Source: a virus. Taken from it: a stretch of 36,258 nt of DNA. Of this stretch, positions 2,108 to 31,397 are shown one piece after another. The first letter of the stretch is position 1. Each line of letters starts with the position of its first letter. The stretch spans positions 1 to 36,258 of the IMG/VR virus record IMGVR_UViG_3300032046_000105. One strand, 5' to 3'. The position numbers were made by a program, and so were the translations under genes. The notes beneath the pieces were generated by a model. It worked only from the letters and a program-made list of their open reading frames with translations. It did no database searches and was not told the DNA's origin.

Positions 2108-2322
2108 ATTTCTTGCAAAAATACCCCGAATTAAGGCAAGTTTTGGTCAATTTGAAGTCGGGAACAGCCTTCAAAGGCGTCGTTTTCCAACGAAAAAGCG
2201 ATTATCTGGTGCTAAAAAGCGCAGAAATCATTCAGGACCGGGGCCAGGCGGCCAAGAAACAGCCGGTGGATGGCGAGGTGCTGATCTTCCGGGCAGATAT
2301 TGACTTCATACAGGTGATTTGA
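2104..2322 (+). CDS. Small conserved phage protein between terminase and portal
   Basis: This 72-residue protein has a predicted beta-rich core (GTAFKGVVFQRKSDYLVLKS, residues 20-39) and ends in ADIDFIQVI. Proteins of this size and pattern often sit between the large terminase and portal in HK97-like phages; the pattern faintly recalls a small-barrel Sm/Lsm-like fold, which is inference only. It overlaps the terminase stop (ATGA) and the portal start (TGATG), so it is translated as part of the packaging operon. No function is assigned. Confidence 0.75.
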   Translation: MNFLQKYPELRQVLVNLKSGTAFKGVVFQRKSDYLVLKSAEIIQDRGQAAKKQPVDGEVLIFRADIDFIQVI

Positions 2323-5300
2323 TGGCTGCAATCCAGACTCTCGGTACTATCGCAGCGCTGCAACCGTCCTGGTCGCCGGGGAGGACCTACATGGGCGTGC
2401 GCCTGTACGATTCGTTCAATTACGACTACGCGGCGTTGTACCGGATGCAGCCCAACGTGCGCACGTGCGTCGATTTTCTGGCCCGAAACGTGGCGCAGTT
2501 GGGCCTGCACTCCTACCGGAGGGTGGATGATACCGACCGGGTGCGACTGATGCCGGGCGATCATGGGCTGCCGCAGGTGCTCTCCAGGCCGCTGCCGGCT
2601 GACTACAAGATGACGAGTTACCGCCTGATCGAGGCGCTGATGGCGGATTTAGGGGTATATTTCAACGGTTACTGGCTCAAATTGCGCAGTGGAAGGGATT
2701 TAACCGGACTTTTGCGCATCCCGCCGATGTATATGACGGTGAAGGGCGGGTTGATCCCCACCCAATATACGATCACGGCTAGTGGGCAGCTCTGGAAGCT
2801 GCAACCTGATGAAATCGTGCACTTCCGGGGTTATAACCCGGAGAATGCGGTCAGCGGGCTATCGCCGCTAGAAACTCTGCGGCGGGTACTGGCCGAGGAG
2901 CAGGCCGCCGGCAAATATCGGGAGGAATTTTGGCAGAACGCGGCGCGGATGCGGGGGATCATCGAGCGACCGGCTGAAGCGCCGGAGTGGAGCGACCCGG
3001 CGCGCGAGCGCTTCATGGCCGAGTTCGCGGCGCTGTATGCGGGCGAAGAGACCGGCGGCAAGACGGCGGTGCTGGAAGAGGGCATGAAATTCACGGAAGG
3101 GAGCTTCAACCCGCAGGAGAGCGAGTACCTGGGCGGGCGGAAGTTGACGCGGGAGGAATGTGCCCGCGCTTATCATATCCCGCTGCCGATGGTGGGCATT
3201 TTGGAGCATGCCACGTTCTGTCTACCTGCTCATGTACCGGTGTTTACGGCAGAGGGACCACGCCCTATCGCTGAGATACGAGTGGGAGATCAAGTCTGGA
3301 GTCATAGTGGTGATGGATTCATTTTGAAGCAGGTTACGCGGTCAGGTCAAACGGGCATCAATCCGATCCTGCGTATTAAGACACAAAATCGGACGTTGGA
3401 CGTGAATCCAACACATCCAATTCTAGTTCGACGTTTAGCTAAAGTGGAGGGTATACCGGATCCGGATGCGGGCGCAAAGGTGCGAGCCGGTCAATCTCGG
3501 TGGCATTATGAAGTGCAACATATTTATATGCCGGCAAATGAGATCAAATGTGGCGATATTCTGGTGGTGCTGAAGAAATTACCAGAGGGAAAATCTTGTC
3601 AAGCGATAGAGCGGATGGAATTCTTTGGTCTCTTGATAGGTGATGGGAATATCTATCCCAAGACCGGAAGCGTTTCTATCGCGAGGGCAAACGATGCGCT
3701 ATATATGGATCACTATCGGAATATTATGCGCAAGGAGTTCAAGTCTTTTGGCCGTCGCGGGAACGGTAAGATGAGAGATGTGCCCATGCAGCCTGTGGCT
3801 CTGGTGGAAGGGGATCGGCAGACTCGTTTCGCGTCCGTGATGGTTGTAGAGGAGCTAACAAAACTTGGCCTATCTGGAACGGCGCATACCAAGCGCGTTC
3901 CTGGCTGGGTATTCGGCGCAAGTCATGCTGAGCAGTTTGCGTTCTTGCGTGGCTACTTGGACGCTGATGGATCGGTTGATAAGCGCGGCAAAATCAGCTA
4001 TTCTTCTTGCAATCCTTTACTCATCGAAGATATCCGCCATCTGTGCATGAGCCTGGGAGTGGCCGTCAACAATGTTTATCACCGAGTTGGACGGACGGTG
4101 CTGCCGACCGGCGACAACGGGGACGTCGATCAATGGACTATTGTTTGTTCGGATCCCAAAGCGAATCTGATGATCGGTTCATATGATCCGCGCTATCAGG
4201 AGCGATGGGCCAATGCGCGCAGCTGGGGCAAGAAAGCCAAGAATTACCCGTTTGCGAGAGGTAGAAATTCCGAGCCTCCGGTCGGTTGTGAATATTCGCG
4301 TGTAGTTTCTATCGAAGACCTTCCGGCAGAGCCAGTCTATGACATTGAAGTCGAAGGCAGTCATAATTTTATTGCGGCGGGTATCGTAGTTCACAATTCG
4401 AATATTACCGAGCAACATAAAAACTTGTATCAGGATTCGCTGGGGCCGTGGCTGGTGATGATCGAGCAGGACATCGAGCTGCAGCTGCTGCCAGAATTCG
4501 CCGACAGCGACGATGTTTACGTCGAGTTCAACATCATGGAAAAATTGGCCGGGTCATTCGAGGATCAGATCAAATCTTTCCAGGCGGCAGTAGGGCGACC
4601 GTGGATGACGCCCAACGAGGCGCGCGCCCGGATGAACATGCCGAGCATGGACGGCGATGCGGATGAGCTGGCTACCCCATTGAATGTGATCGTCGGGGGT
4701 CAGGCCTCGCCGCGTGACAGCGCCCCGCCCGGAAAATCGGCAGCGGCTGGAGAATGGCAGACCGGGTCTGCGCCGCAATTCTCGAAGGCACGGCGGTTCG
4801 ACAGCCATTTCCCGGAGCTGCGCGCCCGGTATGCGGAGAAATGGACGAGCGTGCTGACCACGTTCTATAAACGGCAGGAGCGATCGATCGTCAGCCGGGT
4901 ACCGGCAACCATCCAGGACGGCAAAAGTGTGATCGGCGGCTCGGTGTGGTGGGACGATGAGCGCTGGAACAACGAATTAGGCGTCGATCTGTTGAAGCTG
5001 AACCGGGCCACGACGCTGGCCTACGCCGAGGCAATGGCGCAAAAGCTGGGGGCGGAGATCGAGGATTGGGACATGTTCGAGGCGCTCATGCTGCCCTGGC
5101 TGGCCGAACACTCGAGGATCCAGGCGGAGAGCATCAATAACCACACCAAAACGGCGCTGGATGAGGCTTTGATGCAGCCGGAGGCGCTGGAGGCGGTGAA
5201 AAATGTATTCGTGGTGGCGCTGAGCGCCTGGGTGGGACGGGAAGTGATCGGGGCGATCACCTCTGCGGCTAATTTCGGCTCGATGGAGGCGGCCAGGGCC

Positions 5301-5486
5301 TCGGGCAGCGTGGGGAGCAAGACCTGGCACGTCAACAGCGGCAACCCACGACCCAGCCACGCAGCGATGGACGGCGAGACGGTGGGGATCCGGGACAATT
5401 TCAGCAACGGACTGCGCTGGCCGGGCGATCCGCAGGGAAGCGCGGACGAAAACGCAAATTGCCAATGCAGTGTGGAATTTTCGTGA
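2322..5486 (+). CDS. Portal protein fused to Mu gpF-like minor head protein, interrupted by an intein
   Basis: The precursor is 1054 residues. Residues 1-299 and 693 onward form an HK97-type portal, the dodecameric DNA gate at the capsid vertex. After the portal (to about residue 780) the chain continues into a helical region and a Mu gpF-like head morphogenesis domain, whose signature (RPSHAAMDGE, LRWPGDP, ENANCQCS) lies in the last 55 residues. Residues 300-692 are an intein placed inside the conserved portal motif HATF/SNITEQ. The start is the ATG at 2322, overlapping the previous stop (TGATG); a TTG three bases upstream is unlikely. Without the intein the mature protein would be about 661 residues, long for a lone portal and consistent with a portal-MuF fusion. 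Confidence 0.92.
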   Translation: MAAIQTLGTIAALQPSWSPGRTYMGVRLYDSFNYDYAALYRMQPNVRTCVDFLARNVAQLGLHSYRRVDDTDRVRLMPGDHGLPQVLSRPLPADYKMTSYRLIEALMADLGVYFNGYWLKLRSGRDLTGLLRIPPMYMTVKGGLIPTQYTITASGQLWKLQPDEIVHFRGYNPENAVSGLSPLETLRRVLAEEQAAGKYREEFWQNAARMRGIIERPAEAPEWSDPARERFMAEFAALYAGEETGGKTAVLEEGMKFTEGSFNPQESEYLGGRKLTREECARAYHIPLPMVGILEHATFCLPAHVPVFTAEGPRPIAEIRVGDQVWSHSGDGFILKQVTRSGQTGINPILRIKTQNRTLDVNPTHPILVRRLAKVEGIPDPDAGAKVRAGQSRWHYEVQHIYMPANEIKCGDILVVLKKLPEGKSCQAIERMEFFGLLIGDGNIYPKTGSVSIARANDALYMDHYRNIMRKEFKSFGRRGNGKMRDVPMQPVALVEGDRQTRFASVMVVEELTKLGLSGTAHTKRVPGWVFGASHAEQFAFLRGYLDADGSVDKRGKISYSSCNPLLIEDIRHLCMSLGVAVNNVYHRVGRTVLPTGDNGDVDQWTIVCSDPKANLMIGSYDPRYQERWANARSWGKKAKNYPFARGRNSEPPVGCEYSRVVSIEDLPAEPVYDIEVEGSHNFIAAGIVVHNSNITEQHKNLYQDSLGPWLVMIEQDIELQLLPEFADSDDVYVEFNIMEKLAGSFEDQIKSFQAAVGRPWMTPNEARARMNMPSMDGDADELATPLNVIVGGQASPRDSAPPGKSAAAGEWQTGSAPQFSKARRFDSHFPELRARYAEKWTSVLTTFYKRQERSIVSRVPATIQDGKSVIGGSVWWDDERWNNELGVDLLKLNRATTLAYAEAMAQKLGAEIEDWDMFEALMLPWLAEHSRIQAESINNHTKTALDEALMQPEALEAVKNVFVVALSAWVGREVIGAITSAANFGSMEAARASGSVGSKTWHVNSGNPRPSHAAMDGETVGIRDNFSNGLRWPGDPQGSADENANCQCSVEFS
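3219..4397 (+). mobile_element. Intein with LAGLIDADG homing endonuclease, in the portal gene
   Basis: This is a 393-residue in-frame insertion. It begins with Cys (CLPAHVPVFTAEGPRPI) and ends with the splice motif GIVVHN followed by Ser as the first C-extein residue. The N-terminal splicing block and the C-terminal block (VYDIEVEGSHNFIAAG) frame two LAGLIDADG motifs, FGLLIGDGN (intein residue about 135) and LRGYLDADGS (about 243). All catalytic positions visible by eye are intact, so splicing and homing activity are both plausible. Base composition is visibly more AT-rich than the flanking portal sequence, which fits independent transfer. Confidence 0.93.
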
Positions 5487-5489
5487 TTG

Positions 5490-5506
5490 CGGATTGCCGC
5501 AATCCG
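5490..5506. repeat. 17-bp palindrome CGGATTGCCGCAATCCG, copy 1
   Basis: This is an exact inverted repeat with a 7-bp stem and CCG spacer in the portal-protease gap. Identical copies occur at 22054-22070 and 27349-27365. Confidence 0.8.
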
Positions 5507-5518
5507 ATTGAGGTGTGA

Positions 5519-5564
5519 GATGACGGAAAACAGGAGTTTTCGATGACGGAAAACAGGAGTTTTC
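5519..5564 (+). repeat. Tandem duplication of a 23-bp unit carrying the ribosome binding site
   Basis: Two perfect 23-bp copies (5519-5541 and 5542-5564), each containing GATGACGGAAAACAGGAG, lie head to tail just before the protease start. The second supplies the working CAGGAG site. The first contains an ATG with no long frame. Confidence 0.9.
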
Positions 5565-5565
5565 A

Positions 5566-6402
5566 ATGAAACAAAAAATTTATACCGGGCTGATCCAACT
5601 GAAGGCGGATGGCAAGGAAGGTGAGTTCATGGCCGAGTTTGCCACGCTCAACGTGATCGACCACGACAAGGACGTGACGTTACCTGGGGCGTTCCACGAT
5701 GGGCAAGGGACGCTGATCGAGCCATGGAATCATAGCTACGGCATGCTGCCGGTCGGGAAGGGCGTGATTCATGAAAAGGAGAACAAGGCCATCATAGAAG
5801 GCCAATTTTTCCTGGATGTTCAATCCGGCCTGGAGCATTACCGGGTGGTCAAGGCGCTCGGTCCGCTTCAGGAATGGTCGTACACTTTCGAGATCGAAAA
5901 GGCCAGCCAGGGGAAATTCGAGGATCAGGATGTACGATTCCTGGAGGGATTGGATGTTTGGGGCGTGGCCCCGGTCACGCGCGGAGCAGGGATCGACACC
6001 CGAACCACGGACATCAAGGGCGCAAAGCCCTTCCCTAATGAACATTCATGCCGGCTTCGTCCGCCAGGCGATTTCCAGGCGGACAGCTTCCGGCGCACGA
6101 CGCGGGCGCACGAGGGAAAGAAATATGATGTCATCATGGGAAAACTGAAAGACGAAGATACCATGACCGAGCAGGCCTATCGCTATCCCAAAGAAACCTG
6201 GGAGGCAGCCGATGCCCGCGCGCATTGCAAAGGTCATGATGGTAGTTTCGAGCCTGCAAAGGCTCTTAATGCTCAGGGCGACGGCGAAGACGAGGCTGGC
6301 GAACGGGGACGTTCGCAGGGTAAGTCGAGCGGCATCGAACTGATACGGACCCGATTAGATATTCTAGAAATTGAAACCGGCGTAGAACCGGAGGAGGAAT
6401 AA
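5566..6402 (+). CDS. Prohead protease (HK97 family, peptidase S78-like)
   Basis: This 278-residue protein is the likely capsid maturation protease. The catalytic residues appear as H56 in EPWNHSYGMLPVG and S105 in LQEWSYTFEI, the two signature motifs of the herpesvirus-like HK97 prohead proteases. The family core occupies roughly residues 1-160. The C-terminal part holds a YRYPKETWEAADARAHCKGH motif that often trails phage proteases and may bind the scaffold or substrate (inference). The major capsid gene follows with no gap, as expected for head assembly genes. Confidence 0.93.
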   Translation: MKQKIYTGLIQLKADGKEGEFMAEFATLNVIDHDKDVTLPGAFHDGQGTLIEPWNHSYGMLPVGKGVIHEKENKAIIEGQFFLDVQSGLEHYRVVKALGPLQEWSYTFEIEKASQGKFEDQDVRFLEGLDVWGVAPVTRGAGIDTRTTDIKGAKPFPNEHSCRLRPPGDFQADSFRRTTRAHEGKKYDVIMGKLKDEDTMTEQAYRYPKETWEAADARAHCKGHDGSFEPAKALNAQGDGEDEAGERGRSQGKSSGIELIRTRLDILEIETGVEPEEE

Positions 6403-7695
6403 ATGTTCATTCTCAAGGAATTACATGAGAAATATCAAAAGGCGCTGCTGGCAGCGCGCGACTTGTGCGACCTGGTGGAAAAGGAAAAGCGCGATTTCAC
6501 CGAGGACGAGCGCGGCAAGGTGTCCGCGGCGCTGAAAGAGGCGAATGATCTGAAGACGCAGATCAAACAGGCCGAGGACGATCAGGCGATGCGCAAGCAG
6601 ATCGAGGCCTTGGGCGAGTTCGGCGAACGCCAGACCAGCGATGGTGGAAACACTCAGCCCAAGGGCGCGAAGACCCTGGGGCAGCGGTTCCTGGATAGCC
6701 CGGAATGGCAGGCCTGGTTCAAGCAGATTGCTCCAGATGGGCATATCTCGGAGAGTCGCAAAGGAATCAGCAGCCCGGCGGTGATGATCAAAGACTTCGG
6801 CATCTTCCCCCAGCGCAAGGAGCTGATCACCGGGTTGGCCGATAACAGCGCCGGGGCGTTCGTGGTGACGGAGGATACCGGGATCTATGAGCCGATCGGG
6901 CGCTACCCGGTGACACTGCGTGACCTGATCAGCGTGCGCACGACCACCAGCGACACGGTGGAGTTCGTGCGCCAAACCAAACAGATCACGGAGGCGGCGC
7001 CCACGCCGGAGTCCAATGTCAAATATGTGACCGGCTACCCGGGTGAGATCGACGGCAAGAAGCCCCAGGGCGAAGTCCATTGGGAGCGGGTGCACGAGAC
7101 GGTCAAGACGATCGCCGTGTACGTGGGCGCAACCAAGCGCGCCCTGGCGGACGTGGGGCAGCTACGCGGCTTGATCGACCAGGAGCTGCGCGACGACCTG
7201 GTGGACGCGCTAGAAAACCAGCTCTTCAACGGCAACGGCATCGGCGAGAACTTCCTGGGGATCAACAACCAACCCGGCACACTGGTGCAGGCGTTCAATA
7301 CGAACGCGCTGATCACGGCGCGCCAGGCGATCACCACGCTGTTGGTGATCGGACGGCAAATGCCGACGGCGTTCGTGTTCAATCCGCAGGACTGGGAGAC
7401 GATCGACCTGCTGCGGGATCTCAATGGGAACTTTCTGCGGGGCAATCCGTTTGGAGCAGGGCCGAACACGCTGTGGGGCGTGCCGGTGGTGCAATCGTTC
7501 CACACCGCCCAGGGCGCGGCCTGGCTGGCCAACTGGCGCAAAGCGGTACTTTGGGACCGCCAACAGGCGACGATCAGCGCAACTGACAGCCACGAGGACT
7601 GGTTCATCCGAAATATGATCGCCATTTTGGCCGAACTCCGCGCGGCGTGGGGTTTGATCAGACCCCAGGCATTCGTTCAGGTTCTGATGGCATAA
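6403..7695 (+). CDS. Major capsid protein (HK97 fold)
   Basis: This is a 430-residue HK97-type capsid protein. Residues 1-75 are charged and helical (KEKRDFTEDERGKVSAALKE), matching the delta/scaffold domain that the upstream protease would remove. From about residue 130 the body contains typical elements such as ADNSAGAFVVTEDTG, an HE(T)VKTIAVYVGATKRAL segment and the C-terminal ILAELRAAWGLIRPQAFV. A strong GGAGGA site sits in the end of the protease gene immediately before the ATG. A perfect hairpin follows the stop. Confidence 0.95.
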   Translation: MFILKELHEKYQKALLAARDLCDLVEKEKRDFTEDERGKVSAALKEANDLKTQIKQAEDDQAMRKQIEALGEFGERQTSDGGNTQPKGAKTLGQRFLDSPEWQAWFKQIAPDGHISESRKGISSPAVMIKDFGIFPQRKELITGLADNSAGAFVVTEDTGIYEPIGRYPVTLRDLISVRTTTSDTVEFVRQTKQITEAAPTPESNVKYVTGYPGEIDGKKPQGEVHWERVHETVKTIAVYVGATKRALADVGQLRGLIDQELRDDLVDALENQLFNGNGIGENFLGINNQPGTLVQAFNTNALITARQAITTLLVIGRQMPTAFVFNPQDWETIDLLRDLNGNFLRGNPFGAGPNTLWGVPVVQSFHTAQGAAWLANWRKAVLWDRQQATISATDSHEDWFIRNMIAILAELRAAWGLIRPQAFVQVLMA

Positions 7696-7720
7696 GCCGG
7701 GCAATTTGCGTCGGTTTATG

Positions 7721-7752
7721 CGGGGGATGTGGAGTCATCTCCACATCCCCCG
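7721..7752 (+). terminator. Perfect 14-bp hairpin after the capsid gene
   Basis: An inverted repeat with 14 paired bases on each side (7721-7734 and 7739-7752) encloses a TCAT loop, 25 bp after the capsid stop. There is no U-run, so it is not a classical terminator. It is better read as an mRNA-stabilising or partial-termination structure that sets capsid levels above the cassette behind it (inference). It also argues that the GTG at 7729, buried in the stem, is not the start of the next gene. Confidence 0.7.
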
Positions 7753-7764
7753 AGTGGAGAGCTC

Positions 7765-8436
7765 ATGGTCGAACAGCAGAGCATTATCGCAGAGCGAGGT
7801 GTGTTATACGTAGCTTACGGCGAGAAAGCGCGGGAGCAGGCGGGCGTAAGCATCCGCACGGCGCGCAAACAGGCCAAGGGGCTGCCGATCGCCGTGGTGA
7901 GCGATACGCCGATGACAGGTGTGGAGCATAACATCTACCACCCGGAAGCCGACCGGGGAGCGCGCACGCAAAAGACGCAGATGTACAGGCTCAGCCCGTT
8001 CGAGCAGACTCTGTTCCTGGACGCTGACACCGAGATGCTGAGCAGCCCGGCGGGGGGCTGGGAGCTGTTGAAATATGTGGACCTGGTGCTGACGCAGGAT
8101 GTAACACGGATTTTCGCTGAAAACCACTGGCCGCATCTCAATAAAGACGAGGTGGCGGCGACGACGAAGCTGCTCGGAACCGGGCAGCACCTATATTACA
8201 ACAGCGGTGTGATCTTCTTCCGGCGCAACGATCGGACGGCAGCAATGATGGACGCCTGGTACGCGGAATGGCTGCGCTGGAATCTGCACGACCAAATGGC
8301 GCTGCTGCGGGCCATCCACCAGCACCCGGTGCGGATCGCGCCGATGCGGGCGCCCTGGAACACGCACCACCAAAAAGAAGCGCAGTTCATCTACCACAAG
8401 CACCGCCAGGCGCGGCGGGAGGGTGCGCCGCAATGA
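7765..8436 (+). CDS. Glycosyltransferase-like protein (GT-A fold, DxD)
   Basis: This 223-residue protein begins GVLYVAYGEKA after a short lead and carries a metal-binding DxD-type motif in TLFLDADTEML (D86-A87-D88). Later segments LYYNSGVIFFRRND and HDQMALLRAIHQHPV match the acceptor and catalytic half of GT8-like or nucleotide-diphospho-sugar transferases. It would move a sugar from a nucleotide donor to an unknown acceptor in the cytoplasm. The start at 7765 follows GGAGAG and the hairpin; an upstream in-frame GTG (7729) lies inside the stem. A clear paralogue is at 10048-10902. The gene overlaps the next one (ATGA). Confidence 0.8.
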   Translation: MVEQQSIIAERGVLYVAYGEKAREQAGVSIRTARKQAKGLPIAVVSDTPMTGVEHNIYHPEADRGARTQKTQMYRLSPFEQTLFLDADTEMLSSPAGGWELLKYVDLVLTQDVTRIFAENHWPHLNKDEVAATTKLLGTGQHLYYNSGVIFFRRNDRTAAMMDAWYAEWLRWNLHDQMALLRAIHQHPVRIAPMRAPWNTHHQKEAQFIYHKHRQARREGAPQ

Positions 8437-9008
8437 TCGTACCTTCCGCAGAAATCAAGCGAGCATTGGCGATTGCCCATCAAATTCCGGGCTTGTACCG
8501 CCAGAGCGAGGCCGCATTTCTCTACCGACTGGCGCGGCGACGTGGAAACCTGGTCGAATTGGGCTGCTGGATGGGCCGGACGACGGCCATCATGCTGCAG
8601 GCGGCGGCGATCTGGGGCGCAGAGCTGACCACTGTGGACGCTTTCACGGCGATGCCGAACCAGCGGAAACGCGCAACGCCAGAACGATGGCGAGCTAATC
8701 TCAAAGATATTGGATTAATACCGCCCAATTTGCTGGCTATGACCACCAATGAAGCTGCAGAAGTCTACTCGAACGAGCAGATAATCTCACTGCTTTTCAT
8801 CGATGCGAACCACACACGCGAGCAGGTTAGCCGCGACCTGGCCAATTGGACACCTCGCATCAAAATTGGCGGCGTTGTAGCCCTCCACGATATGTTTTAT
8901 TCCTCCATCACCGGCGTTTGCCTGGCGGTAGTGAATTGGTGGAGTACCGCGCGGTGGGAATATATTGGGCAGAGAGATTACACGATTGCATTTCGGAGGA
9001 TGCGCTGA
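8433..9008 (+). CDS. SAM-dependent methyltransferase (class I, small-molecule or glycan type)
   Basis: This 191-residue protein has a motif I, VELGCWMGRTT (about residues 42-52), an acidic strand end TTVDAFT, and LLFIDANHTREQVSRDL followed by IGGVVALHDM. This order matches class I methyltransferases of the Methyltransf_24 type, which often methylate sugars or small molecules. No DNA-methyltransferase catalytic motif (DPPY or PCQ) is present. It is coupled to the glycosyltransferase by ATGA and to the next gene by TGATG, so it probably modifies the same product (inference). Confidence 0.8.
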   Translation: MIVPSAEIKRALAIAHQIPGLYRQSEAAFLYRLARRRGNLVELGCWMGRTTAIMLQAAAIWGAELTTVDAFTAMPNQRKRATPERWRANLKDIGLIPPNLLAMTTNEAAEVYSNEQIISLLFIDANHTREQVSRDLANWTPRIKIGGVVALHDMFYSSITGVCLAVVNWWSTARWEYIGQRDYTIAFRRMR

Positions 9009-10051
9009 TGACAACGAGAACCGCCACGGTTCGACAGTCGACGATGACAATCCGCTTACAATCCTACCCGATGATGGACGAGGCGGAGATCGCCGCGCTG
9101 CGAAAATTATTGTTTGCGCGCAAACCAAAACGCGTGCTGGAGTGGGGTTCGGGCGGCTCGACCCTATACTGGCCCCGAATGTTTCCGGCGATGGATTGGG
9201 TTTCGGTGGAGCATAACCCGGATTACGCGTGGGCGCTGAAAGGCAAAATAACACCCAACGTAACCCTGCTGCGATTGGATTACCCCGAATATCATGAGCT
9301 GACCCCTGAGCAAGTTGGTATGTACGACCTGATCATCGTGGATGGGCGTCACCGGGTACGCTGCCTGGACATCGGGCGTGATCTGCTGGCGCATGGCGGC
9401 GCGGTCGTGCTGCACGATGCCGGTCGGGAACGGTACGCCCCGTGCCGAAAATTCTACCGGACGATCGTCGTTCTGCATCCGCCCAAAAAAGCCAGAGACC
9501 CGCGCGGCCTGTGGCTCCTGACCGAACCGCGGCCAACCAAGGTATTCGGAGTTGGTCTATCCAAGACCGGCACCAACTCGCTCAATGCAGCCCTGGAGCG
9601 CCTGGGATATAAGGCCCTCCACTACCCAAGCCCACGCCAGGTGATGGAATTGGCGCAGGATTACGACGCCCTGACGGATACACCCGTGCTCGCCTGTCTG
9701 GAAGCACTCGACCAGCACTATCCCGGCGCCGTCTTCGTACTGACCACCCGCGCAGAGGAAAGCTGGCTCGAATCTTGCCGGAGTCATTGGGAACGGGTCA
9801 AGCCATCGGACGTGGGCGCCTGGAACCGGCGAAATGTGTATGGGATCGTGGAGTTTGACGAAGCTACCTTCCGCCGCGTTTACCACGAGCATAACCGGCG
9901 GATCAGGGACTATTTTGCCGGGCGACCCTGGAAACTGGTCGAGATGGATATTGTCGCCGGGGACGGATACTCCAAATTATGCCCGGCCTTGGGACTGGAG
10001 GCGCTGGATGAGCCATTCCCACATGCCAGCGCTGCAAAGGAACTTTCATGA
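9008..10051 (+). CDS. Methyltransferase-sulfotransferase fusion protein
   Basis: This 347-residue protein appears to have two domains. Residues about 20-165 form a class I methyltransferase-like domain with VLEWGSGGSTLYW (motif I), VSVEHNPDYA, YDLIIVDGRHR and GGAVVLHDAGRERY. From about 176 a second domain begins TKVFGVGLSKTGTNSLNAAL, with a P-loop-like PAPS-binding loop (183-191), then LGYKALHYPSPR, AVFVLTTRAEESWLESCRSHW and a C-terminal KLVEMDIVAGDGYSKLCPAL. This matches Sulfotransfer_4-type proteins. The start at 9008 overlaps the previous stop (TGATG); a longer frame to 8846 lies within the preceding gene. The acceptor is unknown. Confidence is high for the two domains and low for the substrate. 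Confidence 0.8.
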   Translation: MTTRTATVRQSTMTIRLQSYPMMDEAEIAALRKLLFARKPKRVLEWGSGGSTLYWPRMFPAMDWVSVEHNPDYAWALKGKITPNVTLLRLDYPEYHELTPEQVGMYDLIIVDGRHRVRCLDIGRDLLAHGGAVVLHDAGRERYAPCRKFYRTIVVLHPPKKARDPRGLWLLTEPRPTKVFGVGLSKTGTNSLNAALERLGYKALHYPSPRQVMELAQDYDALTDTPVLACLEALDQHYPGAVFVLTTRAEESWLESCRSHWERVKPSDVGAWNRRNVYGIVEFDEATFRRVYHEHNRRIRDYFAGRPWKLVEMDIVAGDGYSKLCPALGLEALDEPFPHASAAKELS

Positions 10052-10902
10052 TCGAGCGAGGAGTCGTTTACATGTGCTGGGGCGAACCGGCGATGAAAGA
10101 GGCTGAGGCTTCGATGCGCTCTTTGTGGAAAAAGGAGCCGGACATGCCGGTGCTGGTCGTGGGAGATGGGGAGACGTGCGATCGGGTCGCCGCGCATTTC
10201 GCCGGGCGAGAGCAGGTTTCGACGCACAAATGCTACGTGGACCCGTTCACCAGCCAGACAGCATTCGGATTCAAAGCTGGCAGGATCAAGCCGCTGCTGG
10301 CCGGGATCAGCCCGTTCGAGCAGAGTCTGTACGTGGACGCGGAGACGGAGTTCAAGATTTCACCTAAGATCGGGTTCGATTTACTGGAGCACTGGGATTT
10401 CGTGGTGGCGGAGGCTGAGATCCGCAGCCTGGCTAACTCGTTCCTGGATCATACCGAGGCGGACCGGACGGCGGCCTGGCTCAAGACCCCGTACATCTTG
10501 TACCACAATTCCGGGATGCTATTCTGGCGAAAAAATGATGCTACTGCACATTTGTTCGAGCTATGGGCATCGGAGTGGCTGAGATTCAAGGGCTGGGATG
10601 AGCAGGTGGCGCTGCTGCGGGCGCTGTTGAAATCGGATGCGCTTTTTTTGAACGTGCCCTTTACCTGGAACTGCCGCGGGCCGAAGGGCGCCTATCTGCT
10701 CTATCATCGCTTCGCGTCCAAAACCGCCCGGAAATTCCAGGGCGGGCGCTACGCCTCACCCCGTCTCGAAGTCCATACGCCGGCGCGATCGGTGGTGCGG
10801 GTGGAGCTGGCGCCGGGGCGTTTCGTGAAATGTCACGCCGGCGACGAGGAGCAGGTGCTGGCGCATTTCAGGCAGATGATGGCGGGGCACCGGAAAAAAT
10901 AA
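10048..10902 (+). CDS. Second glycosyltransferase-like protein with C-terminal extension
   Basis: This 284-residue protein is a paralogue of the product of 7765-8436: GVVYMCWGEPA, SPFEQSLYVDAETEF, YHNSGMLFWRKND and DEQVALLRALLK align by eye. The metal motif is D97-A98-E99, so the second Asp of DxD is Glu. Residues about 235-284 form an extension (SVVRVELAPGRFVKCHAGDE) that resembles the N-terminus of the next gene's product. It overlaps the sulfotransferase fusion by four bases (ATGA) and closes the four-gene transfer cassette between capsid and connector genes. Confidence 0.78.
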   Translation: MIERGVVYMCWGEPAMKEAEASMRSLWKKEPDMPVLVVGDGETCDRVAAHFAGREQVSTHKCYVDPFTSQTAFGFKAGRIKPLLAGISPFEQSLYVDAETEFKISPKIGFDLLEHWDFVVAEAEIRSLANSFLDHTEADRTAAWLKTPYILYHNSGMLFWRKNDATAHLFELWASEWLRFKGWDEQVALLRALLKSDALFLNVPFTWNCRGPKGAYLLYHRFASKTARKFQGGRYASPRLEVHTPARSVVRVELAPGRFVKCHAGDEEQVLAHFRQMMAGHRKK

Positions 10903-10951
10903 CATGATCATCAATCCGAAGCAATGGAAATTGATCAACCAGGAGGCGCGT

Positions 10952-11458
10952 ATGAGCAAGGGCAAATTGATCAACGTGGAGATTTCCAGGGGGAGATATG
11001 TCAAAATGTACGAGAGCGACGCTATCGCCCAGGGGCTGGTGAAACCCCCACCGGTGACAGAGAAAAAGCTGCTGAAAAAGCCGCAGGATAAGATGCGGAA
11101 GCCGTCGACCGGGTCGCAGATGCCGGCGAACAAGGCCGGTCAACGGATCGAAACGGATGAACGGATAGAGATCGTCGACCCGAGCGCAGTTGAGCAACAA
11201 GCTATTATGGTGGAAATCGCCAAACTGGTGGATGGGGTTCCACCACCCGAGGAGCCGATGACCGGATCACAGCCGATTGATGATATCGCCACAATTCCCG
11301 GCGTCGGAAAGGCATCGGTGAGGGCATTGCAAGCGCATGGGGTGGAGACGTTCGAGCAGCTCAAGCTGGCGCAGGACCTGGACTATCTGCCGGCAAAAGT
11401 GCTGGCGGCGATTGCAGAATGGAGGCTGGTCGCTTGCGACCAGACGGAACGTGGCTGA
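10952..11458 (+). CDS. Helix-hairpin-helix protein in the head-tail region
   Basis: This 168-residue protein has an N-terminal LINVEISRGRYVKMYESDAI segment, a charged Lys/Pro linker, and a C-terminal helix-hairpin-helix motif (DIATIPGVGKASVRALQAHG, about residues 109-128) of the kind that binds DNA non-specifically. Proteins with this layout often sit just before the gp6-like connector in phages. The ATG at 10952 follows AGGAGG; an ATG at 10904 would add 16 residues without a good site. Three AACGGAT-type units (11142-11166) are read through in-frame here as GQRIETDERIE. Confidence 0.7.
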   Translation: MSKGKLINVEISRGRYVKMYESDAIAQGLVKPPPVTEKKLLKKPQDKMRKPSTGSQMPANKAGQRIETDERIEIVDPSAVEQQAIMVEIAKLVDGVPPPEEPMTGSQPIDDIATIPGVGKASVRALQAHGVETFEQLKLAQDLDYLPAKVLAAIAEWRLVACDQTERG

Positions 11459-12050
11459 TTTTGCGAATGTAACGGACATGGAGAATTTCCTGCAGGTGGC
11501 GATCACGACTCCCGAGCAGATTGCGGCGGCCGGCCGGGCGCTGAGCGAGGCAAGCGCGGCGATCCGCGGGTACTGCCACCAGTATCTTTCGCGGGTGTCC
11601 AACGAGAAATTCATCCTGGACTGCTTCGGCGGCAACGTGGTGTTCCTGCCGGAGCTGCCAGCGATCTCGGTATCGAAAGTAGTTGTGGACGGCGCCGCCC
11701 TGGCCAGCACGGCCTATAAATTGGGCAAATACGGGTTTCTGCACCGCCTGAACAGCCAGGTATGGCCGAAAGGCGTGCAAAACATCGAGATCACCTACAC
11801 GCACGGGTACAACCCGATCCCGGACGACATTCGAGGAGTGTGCGCACGCGCCGCCAGCCGGGCGTACCAGGCGGGGCTGCGCGCAGCAGACAGCGACGCC
11901 GTGTCAGGCGTGGCGTCGAAGAGCCTGGGCGATTTCTCGGTGGCGTACGGCGGCGAGGGCGGCGAGGGCGTGATGGGCGCCAGCGCGGCGCGTATGCTGC
12001 TGCTCTCGGAAAAAGACATTTTAGATAGCTACAGGATCGTGGGCCCATGA
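11451..12050 (+). CDS. Head-tail connector (gp6-like adaptor)
   Basis: This 199-residue protein begins at a GTG within the end of the previous gene (eight-base overlap). ADFANVTDMENFLQV at the N-terminus, followed by ASAAIRGYCHQYLS and PELPAISVSKVVVDG, fits the gp6/YqbG family of adaptor proteins that join the portal ring. The middle carries ITYTHGYNPIPDDIRGVCARAASR, a common element of the family. The frame is open further upstream, but that part is out of phase with the HHH gene it overlaps. Order and position fit a connector. Confidence 0.82.
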   Translation: MADFANVTDMENFLQVAITTPEQIAAAGRALSEASAAIRGYCHQYLSRVSNEKFILDCFGGNVVFLPELPAISVSKVVVDGAALASTAYKLGKYGFLHRLNSQVWPKGVQNIEITYTHGYNPIPDDIRGVCARAASRAYQAGLRAADSDAVSGVASKSLGDFSVAYGGEGGEGVMGASAARMLLLSEKDILDSYRIVGP

Positions 12051-12436
12051 CTATGAGCGTGTTCCACTCTCTGCTCAACCGCACCTTCCAGATCGCTCGC
12101 AGGCGGCGCACCTCGGATGGGCGCGGCGGGTGGCCGATCGATTATGTGCTGATCGGCAGTGTGGAGGGGCGCATGCGACCGGCGACGAGCAGCGAGCGGG
12201 AGGCCGGGAAACGGGAGGAAAGAGAGATCACGCACGTGCTGTATGTGGTGGCCGGGACGGATATCCGCAGGGGAGACCTGATCAGCCCTGGGGTGTTGAA
12301 CATTACATCGGATGGTGTGACGGCCAGCGATGTGCTGGTGGAGGTGATGGCGCGGCGTGAGCCATCGCACGCGGGAGAGCACTATGAATATGACTGCCTG
12401 GAACGGCAGCGCGAGTCACAGGATGATGGGAGCTGA
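12047..12436 (+). CDS. Head closure / head-tail joining protein
   Basis: This 129-residue protein sits where HK97-type phages place the head-closure (gp16 or H_T_join) protein. It has the pattern of an Arg-rich start (IARRRRTSDGRGGW), a SVEGRMRPATSSERE segment and DIRRGDLIS..VLNITSDGV strands. It is coupled to the connector by an ATGA overlap. The role is by family pattern and gene order. Confidence 0.72.
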   Translation: MTMSVFHSLLNRTFQIARRRRTSDGRGGWPIDYVLIGSVEGRMRPATSSEREAGKREEREITHVLYVVAGTDIRRGDLISPGVLNITSDGVTASDVLVEVMARREPSHAGEHYEYDCLERQRESQDDGS

Positions 12437-12437
12437 T

Positions 12438-12794
12438 ATGCCGCTCGATTGGAATGCCAAGGATTTGAAAACTGCCATCCGGCAGCGCCTGCTCGAAAAC
12501 GCCGAGACGGTCGGGAAGTTCGTCGAGGAGGATGCCCGGCGGCGGCTGCTGGCGATCAACGATCCGGAGTGGGGGCAGGCGTACCGCGAGAAGGTGGTGA
12601 GTCGACTGCTTACCAACCAGGTTACGGCGTCAACGGACGAAATCGAGATCCTGGTGGGCGTGGCGAAGAGCGGGAAGGGCGAGCATCACGGTTTCTACAT
12701 CGAGCTGGGATCGAGCACGGCCCCGGCGCACCCGTTCCTGCGGCCGGCGGTGTTCGAGAATGCGAAACGGATCGTGGAGATGTTGACCGGATGA
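12438..12794 (+). CDS. HK97 gp10-like neck / minor tail protein
   Basis: This 118-residue protein starts at the ATG at 12438 after GGGAGC. It has an N-terminal helix (LKTAIRQRLLENAETVGKFVEEDARRRL) and a C-terminal GFYIELGSSTAPAHPFLRPAVFENAKRIVEML motif typical of the HK97 gp10 family, which shapes the neck of siphoviruses. An upstream ATG pair (12423 and 12426) is possible but has no better site. The next gene overlaps by four bases (ATGA). Confidence 0.8.
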   Translation: MPLDWNAKDLKTAIRQRLLENAETVGKFVEEDARRRLLAINDPEWGQAYREKVVSRLLTNQVTASTDEIEILVGVAKSGKGEHHGFYIELGSSTAPAHPFLRPAVFENAKRIVEMLTG

Positions 12795-21786: not shown

Positions 21787-23454
21787 TTAGAGGGAGAAGA
21801 GGAGAGAGGTTGTGCGTATGGAGAGGTACTCCGAGGAGTTTTGATCCATACGCATGAAGGGAGGGAGGAGATAGGAGATTTCGCCATTGATGACGCCGTT
21901 TTGACGATGGACGGTGATGCGATGGATGATACCGTGCAGAATGGGGCGGAGTCGTTCGGGGTCACGGCTGGCGAGGGTGCGCAGGAGATCTTCGAGGGTG
22001 AGGCGGATATCGTCGAGGGTGGGGATGGGTTGGGTGTTGAGGATGGCGAGCGACGGATTGCCGCAATCCGCGATGAGCAGCTCGCTTTTTCGTTTCTCGA
22101 GCTGGGCGAGCTGGGCTAATAAGGTAGGGCTGTGACCGGCGGCGGAAATGGCGGAGGCGAGGCGATGCAGGCGAGCATCCAGGTCGGTGAGCTGGGCCTG
22201 GTATTCCTGGAGGCGCTGGTGGTTGGATGCCTGGCGATCGTGGGCAGCAGCCAGGTATTGCTCCTGGATGGGGAGGACGTTTTCGGGGGTGAGGATACGC
22301 TCGGCGAGGATCCGAAGCACAGCGTCTTCGAGCAATTTGCGGGGACATTGGAAGATGGGCTTGGGATGGTCCAATTGGCGGTGACCGCTGGCGCAGCGGT
22401 AATAATAATAGGTGTGGGGACCTTTGCGACAGGTGAAGCCGGTGAGGAGGCTGAGGCAATTGGCGCAGTAGATGAGGCCGGAGAGCAGGTAGGAGCTGGA
22501 GCGGCGGCGCGGGTGCAGACTGCCAGACTGGGCGTCGGGGCGATAGAGGCGGGAGGCGGCTTGATTGATACGCTGGACGGCATCCCAGGTGGGGCGGTCA
22601 ATCAAGGGTTCGGTGAAATCGGGGATGGAATCATTGCCATAGACGTGGAGGCCGATATAGATGGGATTACGGAACATGTAGGTGTAGCCGGTGCTGTTGG
22701 CGTAGAGACACGTGGCGCGCTGGATGGATTTGATGGATGCGCCGGCGGCGCGCAGCTCGAAGGCCTGGCGGACAAGAGGCGCTCTGAGGGGATCGGGGAT
22801 CCAACGGGAGGCGATGTGGGGACGGCCGTCGCGGCGGGCGCCGATTACCAACGGGGAGGGAAGATAACCCACGGGGACGGGTCCGGGGGCGCAGCGGTGG
22901 ACCCGGGCGAGGTGGTGCAGGCCGCGGGATACATCCGCGCTCAGATCCAGTAAAAAGCGCTCATTCTTCCAATCGAGGATGGCTTCGAACAGTCGGCCTT
23001 CGGCGCCGGGGGGGATGTTGTCGTTGAGGGAATAGAACTCGAGGCCGCGGCGGCGGAGATCGGCGCGGTGGAATTGGGCGTCGTCTATGTTGCGGGCGAA
23101 GCGGGACCAGTTCCAGATGATCACGCCCTGGACGGGCTGATCGGGGCTGCGCAGGTCCTGGAGCATGGCTTCGAAGGCGAGGCGGCCTACGACGCTGGAG
23201 GCGGTGCGGGAGTCCTGGTAGATGTGATGGAGGATGTAGTCATGATCACGGCACCAGGCGGAAATGACAGCCTGCTGCTGCTCGAGGGAGAGGTCTTGAT
23301 CATTACCGCCGGAGTCACGCAGATAGGCGACGAGGAGGGAACCAGAGGGAAAAGGAATTTGGAACACGAAGAACACGAAGAGGACGAAAGACGCGAAAGG
23401 GGAAGAAACGACTGACGTCGTTATTATGGGCCAACATATTCCCAGGCGCCGCAA
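21787..23454 (-). CDS. int: Large serine recombinase (phage integrase)
   Basis: This frame is up to 555 residues. The catalytic serine is S48 in AYLRDSGGNDQDLSLEQQ, with QGVIIWNWSRFARN completing the resolvase domain. The middle has VRQAFELRAAGASIKSIQ and NPIYIGLHVYGND of the recombinase domain, then a zinc ribbon (YCANC, YYYRCASGH, FQCPRK) and a coiled coil with C-terminal LEKRKSELLIADCG. It integrates or excises the genome at an unseen att site. The start is uncertain: the first 40 codons (VLFVFFVFQ-type) are translated from an ACGAAG repeat, and the first good motif is AYLRDSG, so a GTG within or near the repeat may be the real start. Confidence 0.9.
   Translation of the reverse strand: MRRLGICWPIITTSVVSSPFASFVLFVFFVFQIPFPSGSLLVAYLRDSGGNDQDLSLEQQQAVISAWCRDHDYILHHIYQDSRTASSVVGRLAFEAMLQDLRSPDQPVQGVIIWNWSRFARNIDDAQFHRADLRRRGLEFYSLNDNIPPGAEGRLFEAILDWKNERFLLDLSADVSRGLHHLARVHRCAPGPVPVGYLPSPLVIGARRDGRPHIASRWIPDPLRAPLVRQAFELRAAGASIKSIQRATCLYANSTGYTYMFRNPIYIGLHVYGNDSIPDFTEPLIDRPTWDAVQRINQAASRLYRPDAQSGSLHPRRRSSSYLLSGLIYCANCLSLLTGFTCRKGPHTYYYYRCASGHRQLDHPKPIFQCPRKLLEDAVLRILAERILTPENVLPIQEQYLAAAHDRQASNHQRLQEYQAQLTDLDARLHRLASAISAAGHSPTLLAQLAQLEKRKSELLIADCGNPSLAILNTQPIPTLDDIRLTLEDLLRTLASRDPERLRPILHGIIHRITVHRQNGVINGEISYLLPPFMRMDQNSSEYLSIRTTSLLFSL
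22054..22070. repeat. 17-bp palindrome CGGATTGCCGCAATCCG, copy 2
   Basis: An exact copy of the element at 5490-5506, here inside the 3' part of the integrase gene, where it encodes part of the ADCGNPS segment. Confidence 0.8.
23360..23403 (-). repeat. ACGAAG-type repeat at the integrase start
   Basis: The + strand reads AACACGAAGAACACGAAGAGGACGAAAGACGCGAAAGG in pieces. It is the same class as the 18029-18128 array and falls in the 5' end of the integrase frame, where it yields the improbable VLFVFFVFQ peptide. Confidence 0.7.
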
Positions 23455-28733: not shown

Positions 28734-28856
28734 ATGTTGATCGGTGATTGGAACGATTTGGAGCGGCATTTGAGCCTGGGGCTGAGGATCGTTGGCGTGG
28801 AGGTGGGGAGGGATGGGACGCCGATCATTACGGCGGAGATTCCGGAGGAGGAGTGA
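28734..28856 (+). CDS. 40-residue partial paralogue of the 27925 product
   Basis: MLIGDWNDLERHLSLGLRIV, then GVEVGRDGTPIITAEIPEEE, is nearly the same at DNA and protein level as the first 40 codons of 27925-28449. AAGGAG precedes it and its stop overlaps the methyltransferase start (TGATGA). It could be a real mini-protein or a translational lead for the methyltransferase. Confidence 0.55.
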   Translation: MLIGDWNDLERHLSLGLRIVGVEVGRDGTPIITAEIPEEE

Positions 28857-29743
28857 TGAATGAGCTGGCTCTATTTGCCGGAGCGGGCGGCGGATTGCTT
28901 GGCAGCAGGTTGCTCGGATGGCGAGCGGTCTGTTATGTCGAATGCAACAAATACTGTGTTGAAGTGCTCAAGGCTCGCATTCAGGATGGATGTCTCGATG
29001 ATGCTCCCATCTGGGACGATGTTCGAACCTTCGACGGGTGTCCCTGGGCTGGATCAGTGGATATTGTCACTGCGGGATTCCCGTGCCAGCCGTTCAGTGG
29101 AGCGGGCAGGCAGCTCGGAGAGCATGACTCCCGCAACCTTTGGCCGGACACCCTTCGCATTATTCGAGAAGTCAGGCCCGAATGGGTTTTACTGGAGAAT
29201 GTCTCAAGGCTGCTTTCCAGCGCTTATGTTCGACGAATTTTCGGAGACCTGGCCGAGAGCGGGTACGATGCGGAATGGGATTGCATACCGGCGTGCGCCA
29301 TTGGCGCCCCTCACATCCGAGATCGGGTCTGGATTGTGGCCCACGCCTGTGGTCAGCCGGGGGGACTATGTTTACAGCCACGGGTGGAAGGCGTTGAAGC
29401 TGGCGGGGGCGGTCAAGATGTTTCCGACGCCGACCGCCAACGATGCCAGACAGAGATTCAACACATCGCCGGGATCGAACCATCCGCGCCCGAATTTGGC
29501 GGCGATGGCGAAGTACGATATGTTCCCGACTCCAGTGGCGACGAACTGGAAGAATCGGACGACCTGCGAGCATTCGAGGGACTTGCAAAAGGCGGTTGGT
29601 GGGATGCTGAACCCGGATTGGGAAGAGTGGTTGATGGGATGGCCCATCGGGTGGACCGCGTTACAGCCATTGGAAACGGGCAAGTTCCGGCAGTGGTTAG
29701 AGTTGCATGGGAATACCTGTTAAGACAAGTATATGAGAAATAG
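28856..29743 (+). CDS. C5-cytosine DNA methyltransferase
   Basis: This 295-residue protein has the ordered motifs of the Dcm/HhaI family: FAGAGG (residues 7-12), PCQPFSGAG with the catalytic C77, ENV (114-116), the motif VIII-like HIRDRVW (153-159) and the late GNGQVP (273-278). It would methylate host or phage DNA, usually as protection from restriction. The start overlaps the preceding ORF (TGATG) behind GGAGGAGG. It lacks a companion restriction gene. A second, fully open frame of 287 codons runs through the same DNA. Confidence 0.9.
   Translation: MNELALFAGAGGGLLGSRLLGWRAVCYVECNKYCVEVLKARIQDGCLDDAPIWDDVRTFDGCPWAGSVDIVTAGFPCQPFSGAGRQLGEHDSRNLWPDTLRIIREVRPEWVLLENVSRLLSSAYVRRIFGDLAESGYDAEWDCIPACAIGAPHIRDRVWIVAHACGQPGGLCLQPRVEGVEAGGGGQDVSDADRQRCQTEIQHIAGIEPSAPEFGGDGEVRYVPDSSGDELEESDDLRAFEGLAKGGWWDAEPGLGRVVDGMAHRVDRVTAIGNGQVPAVVRVAWEYLLRQVYEK
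28860..29723 (+). CDS. Overlapping +1-frame ORF inside the cytosine methyltransferase gene
   Basis: This 287-codon frame starts at an ATG four bases after the methyltransferase start and ends 20 bases before its stop. The translated text contains ETWPRAGTMRNGIAYR, GSGLWPTPVV, MFPTPTANDA, MFPTPVATNW and LNPDWEEWLMGWPIGW, which I recognise from memory as a recurrent phage protein family often found near such methyltransferases. I cannot decide by eye whether it is translated. The methyltransferase motif RVWIVAHA is read here as SGLWPTP, so similarity could simply follow methyltransferase conservation. Function unknown. Confidence 0.4.
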   Translation: MSWLYLPERAADCLAAGCSDGERSVMSNATNTVLKCSRLAFRMDVSMMLPSGTMFEPSTGVPGLDQWILSLRDSRASRSVERAGSSESMTPATFGRTPFALFEKSGPNGFYWRMSQGCFPALMFDEFSETWPRAGTMRNGIAYRRAPLAPLTSEIGSGLWPTPVVSRGDYVYSHGWKALKLAGAVKMFPTPTANDARQRFNTSPGSNHPRPNLAAMAKYDMFPTPVATNWKNRTTCEHSRDLQKAVGGMLNPDWEEWLMGWPIGWTALQPLETGKFRQWLELHGNTC

Positions 29744-30614: not shown

Positions 30615-30694
30615 TGATGCTCCAGCGAATTTTCCACCTGGTGGACTCGTTGGAAATGGCGATGGGATATCTAAATGACTTATACAGGCGGTAA
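30611..30694 (+). CDS. Possible 27-residue micro-ORF before the adenine methyltransferase
   Basis: MMMLQRIFHLVDSLEMAMGY continues LNDLYRR. It overlaps the previous stop and the next start, which may serve translational coupling. Translation is uncertain. Confidence 0.3.
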   Translation: MMMLQRIFHLVDSLEMAMGYLNDLYRR

Positions 30695-31397
30695 GAACGG
30701 TTCTGGTGTCTACCAGATCATCATCAACCAAATGCCCCCACATCGTATCTATGTCGAAGCGTTCCTCGGCAGTGGGGCGATCTTGCGAAACAAGCGTCCG
30801 GCCCCGATCGCCAACATCGGCATAGATAGAGATGACGACGTGATCAAAAATTTTTATCCCCGCGATATACCCGGTCTGGAGTTGCGTTGCGTCGATGCGT
30901 TGGAGTGGATGACTGACGATATTCGGGGTGTCTTGCGTAATCCCGACACCCTACTTTATCTCGACCCGCCCTATCTCATGGAGACTCGCAGTTCACAGCA
31001 GCGATATTATCGATGGGAAATGACCCGTATTGATCATGTCCGTTTACTTGACATTATCCGGTTTTTGCCTTGTCTGGTGATGTTGTCTGGATATTATAGT
31101 GATCTCTACGTTAATGGTCTGGCCGGTTGGCGATCATTACAATATCCGTCTCGCACTCGCGGCGGGAAGATTGCTACCGAATGGCTCTGGATGAATTACC
31201 CTGAGCCGTTCGAGCTGCACGATTATCATTATTTGGGGAAAAACTTTCGGGAGCGAGAGCGCATCAAACGCAAGAAGGCTCGCTGGCTCGATAAATTACA
31301 GTGCATGTCCCTGCTCGAGCGTTACGCTATCCTGGATGCGATTCGGGGTTTACAGCACCATGATGAAGTTATTCAAAAGGAGGCATATAGGCAATGA
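30675..31397 (+). CDS. D12-class adenine-N6 DNA methyltransferase
   Basis: This 240-residue protein has motif I FLGSGA (residues 30-35) and the catalytic DPPY (97-100), in the order of D12 class adenine methyltransferases such as Dam. It would methylate adenine in a short site that cannot be predicted here. It is AT-richer than its neighbours, which suggests recent acquisition. The next gene overlaps by ATGA. No partner nuclease is visible. Confidence 0.85.
   Translation: MTYTGGKNGSGVYQIIINQMPPHRIYVEAFLGSGAILRNKRPAPIANIGIDRDDDVIKNFYPRDIPGLELRCVDALEWMTDDIRGVLRNPDTLLYLDPPYLMETRSSQQRYYRWEMTRIDHVRLLDIIRFLPCLVMLSGYYSDLYVNGLAGWRSLQYPSRTRGGKIATEWLWMNYPEPFELHDYHYLGKNFRERERIKRKKARWLDKLQCMSLLERYAILDAIRGLQHHDEVIQKEAYRQ

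Follow-up and report, generated by a model that had tools for sequence, protein, structure and literature searches.

A candidate virion-glycosylation island between the capsid and head-tail adaptor genes of an uncultured phage

We analyzed a virus record of 36,258 bp (the whole stretch of DNA is called the window). Four overlapping genes at positions 7765-10902, encoded on the same strand between the capsid and connector genes, probably form a virion-glycosylation island. Judged from sequence comparisons, its enzymes would be docked through GT2 and would put a methylated, sulfated sugar on a head protein during assembly.

In the proposed mechanism, while the particle is assembled, the two glycosyltransferases (GT1 and GT2) would move sugars from host nucleotide-sugars to a head protein, which could be either the major capsid protein or the product of the post-capsid gene. 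The methyltransferase (MT) and the methyltransferase half of a methyltransferase-sulfotransferase fusion (MT-ST) would O-methylate the sugar, and the sulfotransferase (ST) half would sulfate it with PAPS as the donor. A module at the C-terminus of GT2, copied from the one at the N-terminus of the post-capsid protein, would recruit this enzyme to the head under assembly. The module presumably binds a head component, and the acceptor is presumably a virion protein. The reaction order, the chemical nature of the product and the benefit to the phage (shielding, adhesion or a more stable particle) are likewise inferred.

Results and Discussion

Locus and Gene Calls

The window carries, in this order, the genes for terminase, portal (with an intein) and protease, the capsid gene, the cassette, a small protein gene, the head-tail adaptor gene and the tail genes. 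The features of the island and its borders are as follows.

6403-7695, plus strand: major capsid protein, HK97 type (PF05065 2e-35, phrog_10 3e-51), upstream border of the island
7721-7752, plus strand: perfect 14-bp hairpin without a T run, in the gap between the capsid gene and the island
7765-8436, plus strand: GT1, GT-A-type glycosyltransferase with LDADTE (DxD) and NSG motifs (PF03407 3e-8)
8433-9008, plus strand: MT, class I O-methyltransferase, Methyltransf_24 (PF13578 4e-17; PDB 6g7d 1e-8 over a short stretch)
9008-10051, plus strand: MT-ST, methyltransferase (residues ~20-175) and putative sulfotransferase (~177-345) (PF17784 7e-32, PF13578 1e-4, Cpz8)
10048-10902, plus strand: GT2, GT-A-type core (residues 1-215), disordered linker and C-terminal module (PF03407 6e-5, model, fold)
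10786-10893, plus strand: C-terminal hairpin-helix module of GT2 (VVRVELAPGRFVKCHAGDEEQV...), the proposed dock
10904-11458, plus strand: post-capsid protein, with the N-terminal module (~20-46), a basic linker and a C-terminal helix-hairpin-helix (HHH) domain
11451-12050, plus strand: head-tail adaptor Ad1 (phrog_442 2e-36), downstream border; the start near 11451 was inferred from relatives, and the longest ORF begins at 11337

The GT1 and MT genes meet at an ATGA joint, MT and MT-ST at TGATG, and MT-ST and GT2 at ATGA. Thus, the four overlapping genes, their families and their joints, as described in an earlier note on this DNA, were borne out by Pfam and by the coordinates. The note had also placed the cassette directly after the capsid gene, between it and the connector genes. 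The cassette does lie between the two. However, it starts 69 nt past the capsid stop, behind the 14-bp hairpin, and the gene at 10904-11458 separates GT2 from Ad1.

Among the window and three relatives, the dN/dS ratio was 0.04-0.19 for each of the four cassette genes wherever it was computable. Such values indicate purifying selection on every one of them, and they are therefore real genes. Chance ORFs were ruled out by the profile matches together with dN/dS.

Several other features were observed in the window. The portal gene (2319-5486) contains an intein with a LAGLIDADG endonuclease (residues ~302-693), and its C-terminal end is a Mu-F-like domain. The intein is missing in the close relatives L001 and L002, which align to both halves. 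A large serine recombinase with Resolvase, Recombinase and Zn-ribbon domains is encoded at 21787-23454 on the minus strand, and from this the phage may be temperate. C5-cytosine and D12-class N6-adenine DNA methyltransferases are encoded at 28748-29743 and 30675-31397.

Enzyme Identities

GT1 and GT2 are homologous (37% identity, 9e-31). Their scores against PF03407 (Nucleotid_trans) were 34.3 and 23.6 bits, respectively, with a curated cut-off of 22. The metal-binding motif is LDADTE in GT1. At the same place GT2 of the window has VDAETE (DAE), many relatives have VDADT (DAD), and the motif is gone in all 19 relatives of the A7 type described below. The DxD motif claimed earlier is thus present in GT1, but not in GT2 of the window phage. 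Because of the DAE motif, the activity of GT2 is not assured, which is a counterpoint to the proposed mechanism.

AlphaFold models were used for GT2 and MT-ST. The GT2 core was predicted to adopt a GT-A fold, and the best structural match was VIA (Z 15.1, rmsd 3.3 over 193 residues). It resembles the GT-A enzymes glycogenin, LARGE1 and LgtC in fold (Z 13-15) and in the DxD-like and NSG motifs. However, the identity to these enzymes is 11-16%, and no match covers the C-terminal module.

The C-terminal part of MT-ST scored 111.5 bits against PF17784 (Sulfotransfer_4; cut-off 22.8). The N-terminal part matched PF13578 at 1e-4, slightly under the curated cut-off, and this is the weakest Pfam assignment of the cassette. 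The predicted structure of MT-ST matches the sulfotransferase Cpz8 with PAP (2e-7) and O-methyltransferases. Furthermore, a 5' motif (GLSKTGTNSL) and the R-8-S motif of PAPS binding can be read in the ST half. By family profile and predicted fold, the ST half is a putative PAPS-dependent sulfotransferase. Cpz8 of caprazamycin synthesis (9kf1, 9kf2), the solved member of Sulfotransfer_4, is like the ST half in sequence and fold, whereas the ST of the window shares its chain with a methyltransferase, and its gene belongs to a phage head operon. This fusion is preserved in L001-L003, L045 and L080. Structure prediction, a check proposed in the earlier note, agreed with the transferase assignments of GT2 and MT-ST.

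Same-Site Islands in Relatives

Relatives were gathered by scans with GT2 and the capsid protein, and 91 distinct capsid-bearing loci were obtained (numbered with L). They are metagenomic contig fragments, and their ORFs were called mechanically. The whole capsid-to-adaptor stretch was present in 39 loci. As in the window, phage-encoded glycosyltransferases were found within the structural operon in 35 of these, as an island of 2,368-6,314 bp; the other four (L108, L116, L119 and L124) have 273-378 bp there instead. When only covered loci fetched through the capsid alone were counted, which avoids the bias of fetching with GT2, islands were found in 25 of 29. In addition, a GT or MT homologue was detected in 57 of the 61 capsid-fetched loci that extend 1.2 kb or more beyond the capsid gene. 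Absence or scattering of the cassette in close relatives, named earlier as a refutation, was looked for, and the islands were found at one site. A moron at a random site was ruled out by this fixed position.

The nearest isolate by capsid, Arthrobacter phage Galaxy (45% identity), is without the island. In tblastn searches of 50,697 phage records of isolates, no match was obtained with MT-ST, GT1 or GT2, nor with the long GT-B-GT1 protein, the second sulfotransferase and two post-capsid proteins. The generic MT was the sole cassette protein matched. Capsid relatives were found in MAGs of Anaerolineae (three), Zixibacteria, Sideroxydans and Bacillota and in one Corynebacterium-like draft, although these contigs may be misbinned.

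Variable Island Contents

Islands of the window type have the order GT1, MT, MT-ST, GT2. Those of L008, L023 and L032 have an MT-GT1 fusion, MT and GT2, and those of L016 and L017 have GT1, MT and an MT-GT2 fusion. In L049, L054, L083 and many more, a GT-B-GT1 fusion of ~580 residues comes first, the genes in the middle vary, and the last gene is short and GT-like. The middle genes of relatives encode GT2-family transferases, Methyltransf_11 proteins, epimerases and a second sulfotransferase group, in which all 11 aligned members match PF13469 under its curated cut-off. Counted as HMM matches at 1e-5, sulfotransferases of the two groups are present in 24 of the 91 loci and in 15 of the 39 covered loci.

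On a quick capsid tree, in which several end branches are long, the sulfotransferase state changes at least 14 times (52 rows) and the type of the last gene at least 8 times (44 rows). GT2 of L016, L017 and L020 is 68-70% identical to that of the window, yet their capsids belong to a different clade. L048 has a capsid nearer to that of the window, yet the other type of last gene. Since these likenesses cross the capsid clades, islands appear to have been exchanged between capsid lineages.

Three further observations concern individual islands. L001 and L002 are 71% identical in MT compared with 84-92% in the other island genes, and the window and L002 are 85% identical in MT; this mosaic suggests gene-level recombination within the island. 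The linker between MT and GT1 in L008 (6014-7411) is made of SPQPSPEGEGDF repeats and is apparently a translated repeat element. A more distant island, in L039, encodes at 4670-5860 a protein that by sequence resembles a B12-binding radical SAM enzyme (SRGCPHRCAFCS).

A Module Shared by the Last Enzyme and the Post-Capsid Protein

In the AlphaFold model, the C-terminal ~30 residues of GT2 form a beta hairpin and a helix after a disordered linker (residues 208-245, pLDDT <50). A profile of this module matched the last enzyme in all 35 covered islands, and 43 distinct ORFs altogether. It was never found on GT1 by the profile search. The same module forms the N-terminus of the small post-capsid protein encoded next, and it is also present there in the island-less phages. 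Among 7,546 six-frame ORFs, the GT2-module profile found post-capsid proteins down to 3e-6. The reverse profile, from the post-capsid protein, found GT C-termini down to 2e-5, and profile-profile comparison of the two modules gave 9.5e-9 and 8e-7. By these comparisons, we regard the GT2 module as homologous to the N-terminal module of the post-capsid protein. No Pfam or PHROGs name was found for it.

In L048, L054 and L068, the last enzyme carries, besides the module, the basic tail (EDKM type) of the post-capsid protein. These loci have no separate post-capsid gene, and the gene of the last enzyme overlaps the adaptor gene by 8 nt. In L032 and L034, the enzyme, a second module and the HHH domain are one ORF.

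The last enzymes form two families that are related to each other (profile E 3e-31). All 19 aligned members of one of them, A7, have lost the DxD, NSG and W-N motifs but retain the module. On the simplest reading, the conserved job of the last gene would be attachment to a head component. As a counterpoint, the module could instead hold the enzymes together, or bind DNA or substrate.

L038-L040, which have a GT2 homologue without the module, were considered as a negative control. In these loci, too, the island is flanked by a capsid fragment and an adaptor gene, and the last enzyme has a basic C-terminal tail, RKPRKAARNK, so the control is not clean.

Target of the Enzymes

No clear membrane segment was found in 219 island ORFs, in which the maximal 19-residue hydropathy was below 2.0. 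A cytosolic protein acceptor therefore fits better than lipid-linked surface-glycan assembly. The enzyme fusions (MT-ST, MT-GT2, MT-GT1 and GT-B-GT1) suggest consecutive steps on one shared acceptor or substrate. Because of these fusions and the lack of clear membrane segments, we favour modification of a head protein with a docked GT2 over the other readings. The shared module, and the chains in which the last enzyme is joined to the post-capsid protein, likewise point to a virion protein associated with the head rather than to host glycans.

The enzymes might alter envelope glycans of the infected or lysogenic host, leading to superinfection exclusion or serotype conversion. Surface polysaccharides are also tailored by glycosyl-, methyl- and sulfotransferases, the serine recombinase is compatible with a temperate phage, and some enzymes that act on surface glycans, namely TarS, RmlT and LgtC, are among the structural neighbours of GT2. 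However, we consider this explanation unlikely. gtr-type serotype-conversion clusters have a membrane flippase and membrane-bound glycosyltransferases, whereas the 219 island ORFs include no clear membrane segment, flippase or polymerase. The fixed site within the head operon and the module that joins the last enzyme to the post-capsid protein, in some phages within one chain, also argue against it. Virion decoration, which the earlier note preferred to a host glycan, is thus the better supported of the two.

A target outside the head, such as the tail tube or a fibre, would also be a form of virion decoration. Alternatively, the last enzyme could be packaged by means of the module and act at the next infection. 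Where the last enzyme is fused to the post-capsid protein, it would travel wherever that protein goes, and PMC12363180 describes modification of both capsid and tail tube in Che8-type phages. Nevertheless, a tail target is without evidence, and many last enzymes look catalytically dead, which fits poorly to a delivered effector. Both variants together seem to us improbable.

Hypermodification of the phage DNA, with modified bases that are glycosylated, methylated or sulfated, is very improbable. A passage of PMC10829341 mentions phage nucleotide modification systems based on glycosyl- and sulfotransferases, MT matches phrog_2675, which is labelled DNA methyltransferase, and the post-capsid protein has an HHH domain. 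In contrast, a base oxidase, a thymidylate-synthase-like protein and a nucleotide kinase were all missing from the Pfam matches of 20 island proteins of relatives and 30 window proteins; one island (L063) has sugar epimerases instead. The position in the head operon also speaks against a DNA target.

Capsid-Island Hairpin and Expression

A perfect stem of at least 9 bp within 100 nt of the capsid stop was found in 22 of 80 distinct capsid loci, compared with 0.2% of mononucleotide shuffles, which preserve base composition and not dinucleotides. Across relatives, the island-less L124 included, the stem is kept and the sequences are unlike. A scan of 6300-12100 detected no promoter- or terminator-like site on the sense strand; one promoter-like and six terminator-like sites, at chance level, were all antisense. 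The co-expression with the capsid suggested earlier is plausible, given the common strand and the lack of a sense-strand terminator-like site. However, the strong hairpin lies between the genes and may keep the enzymes at a lower expression level than the capsid. It could also decouple the two, a further counterpoint to the head-protein proposal.

Comparison with Known Systems

Virion proteins of the mycobacteriophages Corndog, Che8 and Myrna are reported to be glycosylated (Freeman et al. 2023, as cited in PMC12363180). As a Corndog-type genome, we compared Firecracker (JN698993), which has the order portal, O-methyltransferase, unnamed protein, polypeptide GalNAc-transferase, glycosyltransferase, protease and capsid. 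Like the window, it has glycosyltransferases and an O-methyltransferase inside the head-gene operon. However, its cassette lies between portal and protease and not between capsid and adaptor, no sulfotransferase is annotated there, and no shared module was found. BLASTP of the window enzymes against Firecracker gp33-gp36 gave no significant similarity.

According to a passage of PMC7019647, A064R of chlorovirus PBCV-1 has two glycosyltransferase domains and a methyltransferase, and acts on the glycan of the major capsid protein. PBCV-1 and the window share virus-encoded cytosolic enzymes with GT and MT activities, predicted in the window, on one chain. In contrast to the window, PBCV-1 is a eukaryotic algal virus with unrelated genes, and that passage reports no sulfotransferase.

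Virion glycosylation is already known, with few cases in phages; the predicted sulfation, the hypervariable fixed-site island and the proposed docking module appear to be new. Open-access papers on phage sulfotransferases acting on virions were not found, and the matches were auxiliary-gene lists or PAPS reductase. The recurrent sulfotransferases predict sulfated phage particles, for which we found no description in open-access papers. The shared module would provide a concrete explanation, open to testing, of how the enzymes locate the particle. If the proposal is true, a hypervariable one-site island would resemble an O-antigen locus, except that it serves the virus particle, and would imply that particle surfaces in uncultured phages are under diversifying selection.

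A broader proposal is possible, and we hold it tentatively. Between the capsid and connector genes, a large group of uncultured siphophages may maintain a glycan-tailoring island that can be exchanged, so that each lineage would bear its own virion glycan, in many cases with sulfate and methyl groups. A module derived from the post-capsid protein would tether the enzymes to the growing head, and many lineages would use as the tether a catalytically dead glycosyltransferase that serves only as a scaffold.

Additional Genes in L001 and L002

L001 has four extra genes at 9888-12730, between the adaptor gene and the next connector gene. One of them encodes 456 residues of ~20-residue QHNHLV-rich repeats and is possibly a head fibre. 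In L002, an ORF that resembles GIY-YIG endonucleases in sequence lies at 2939-3577, between the portal and protease genes.
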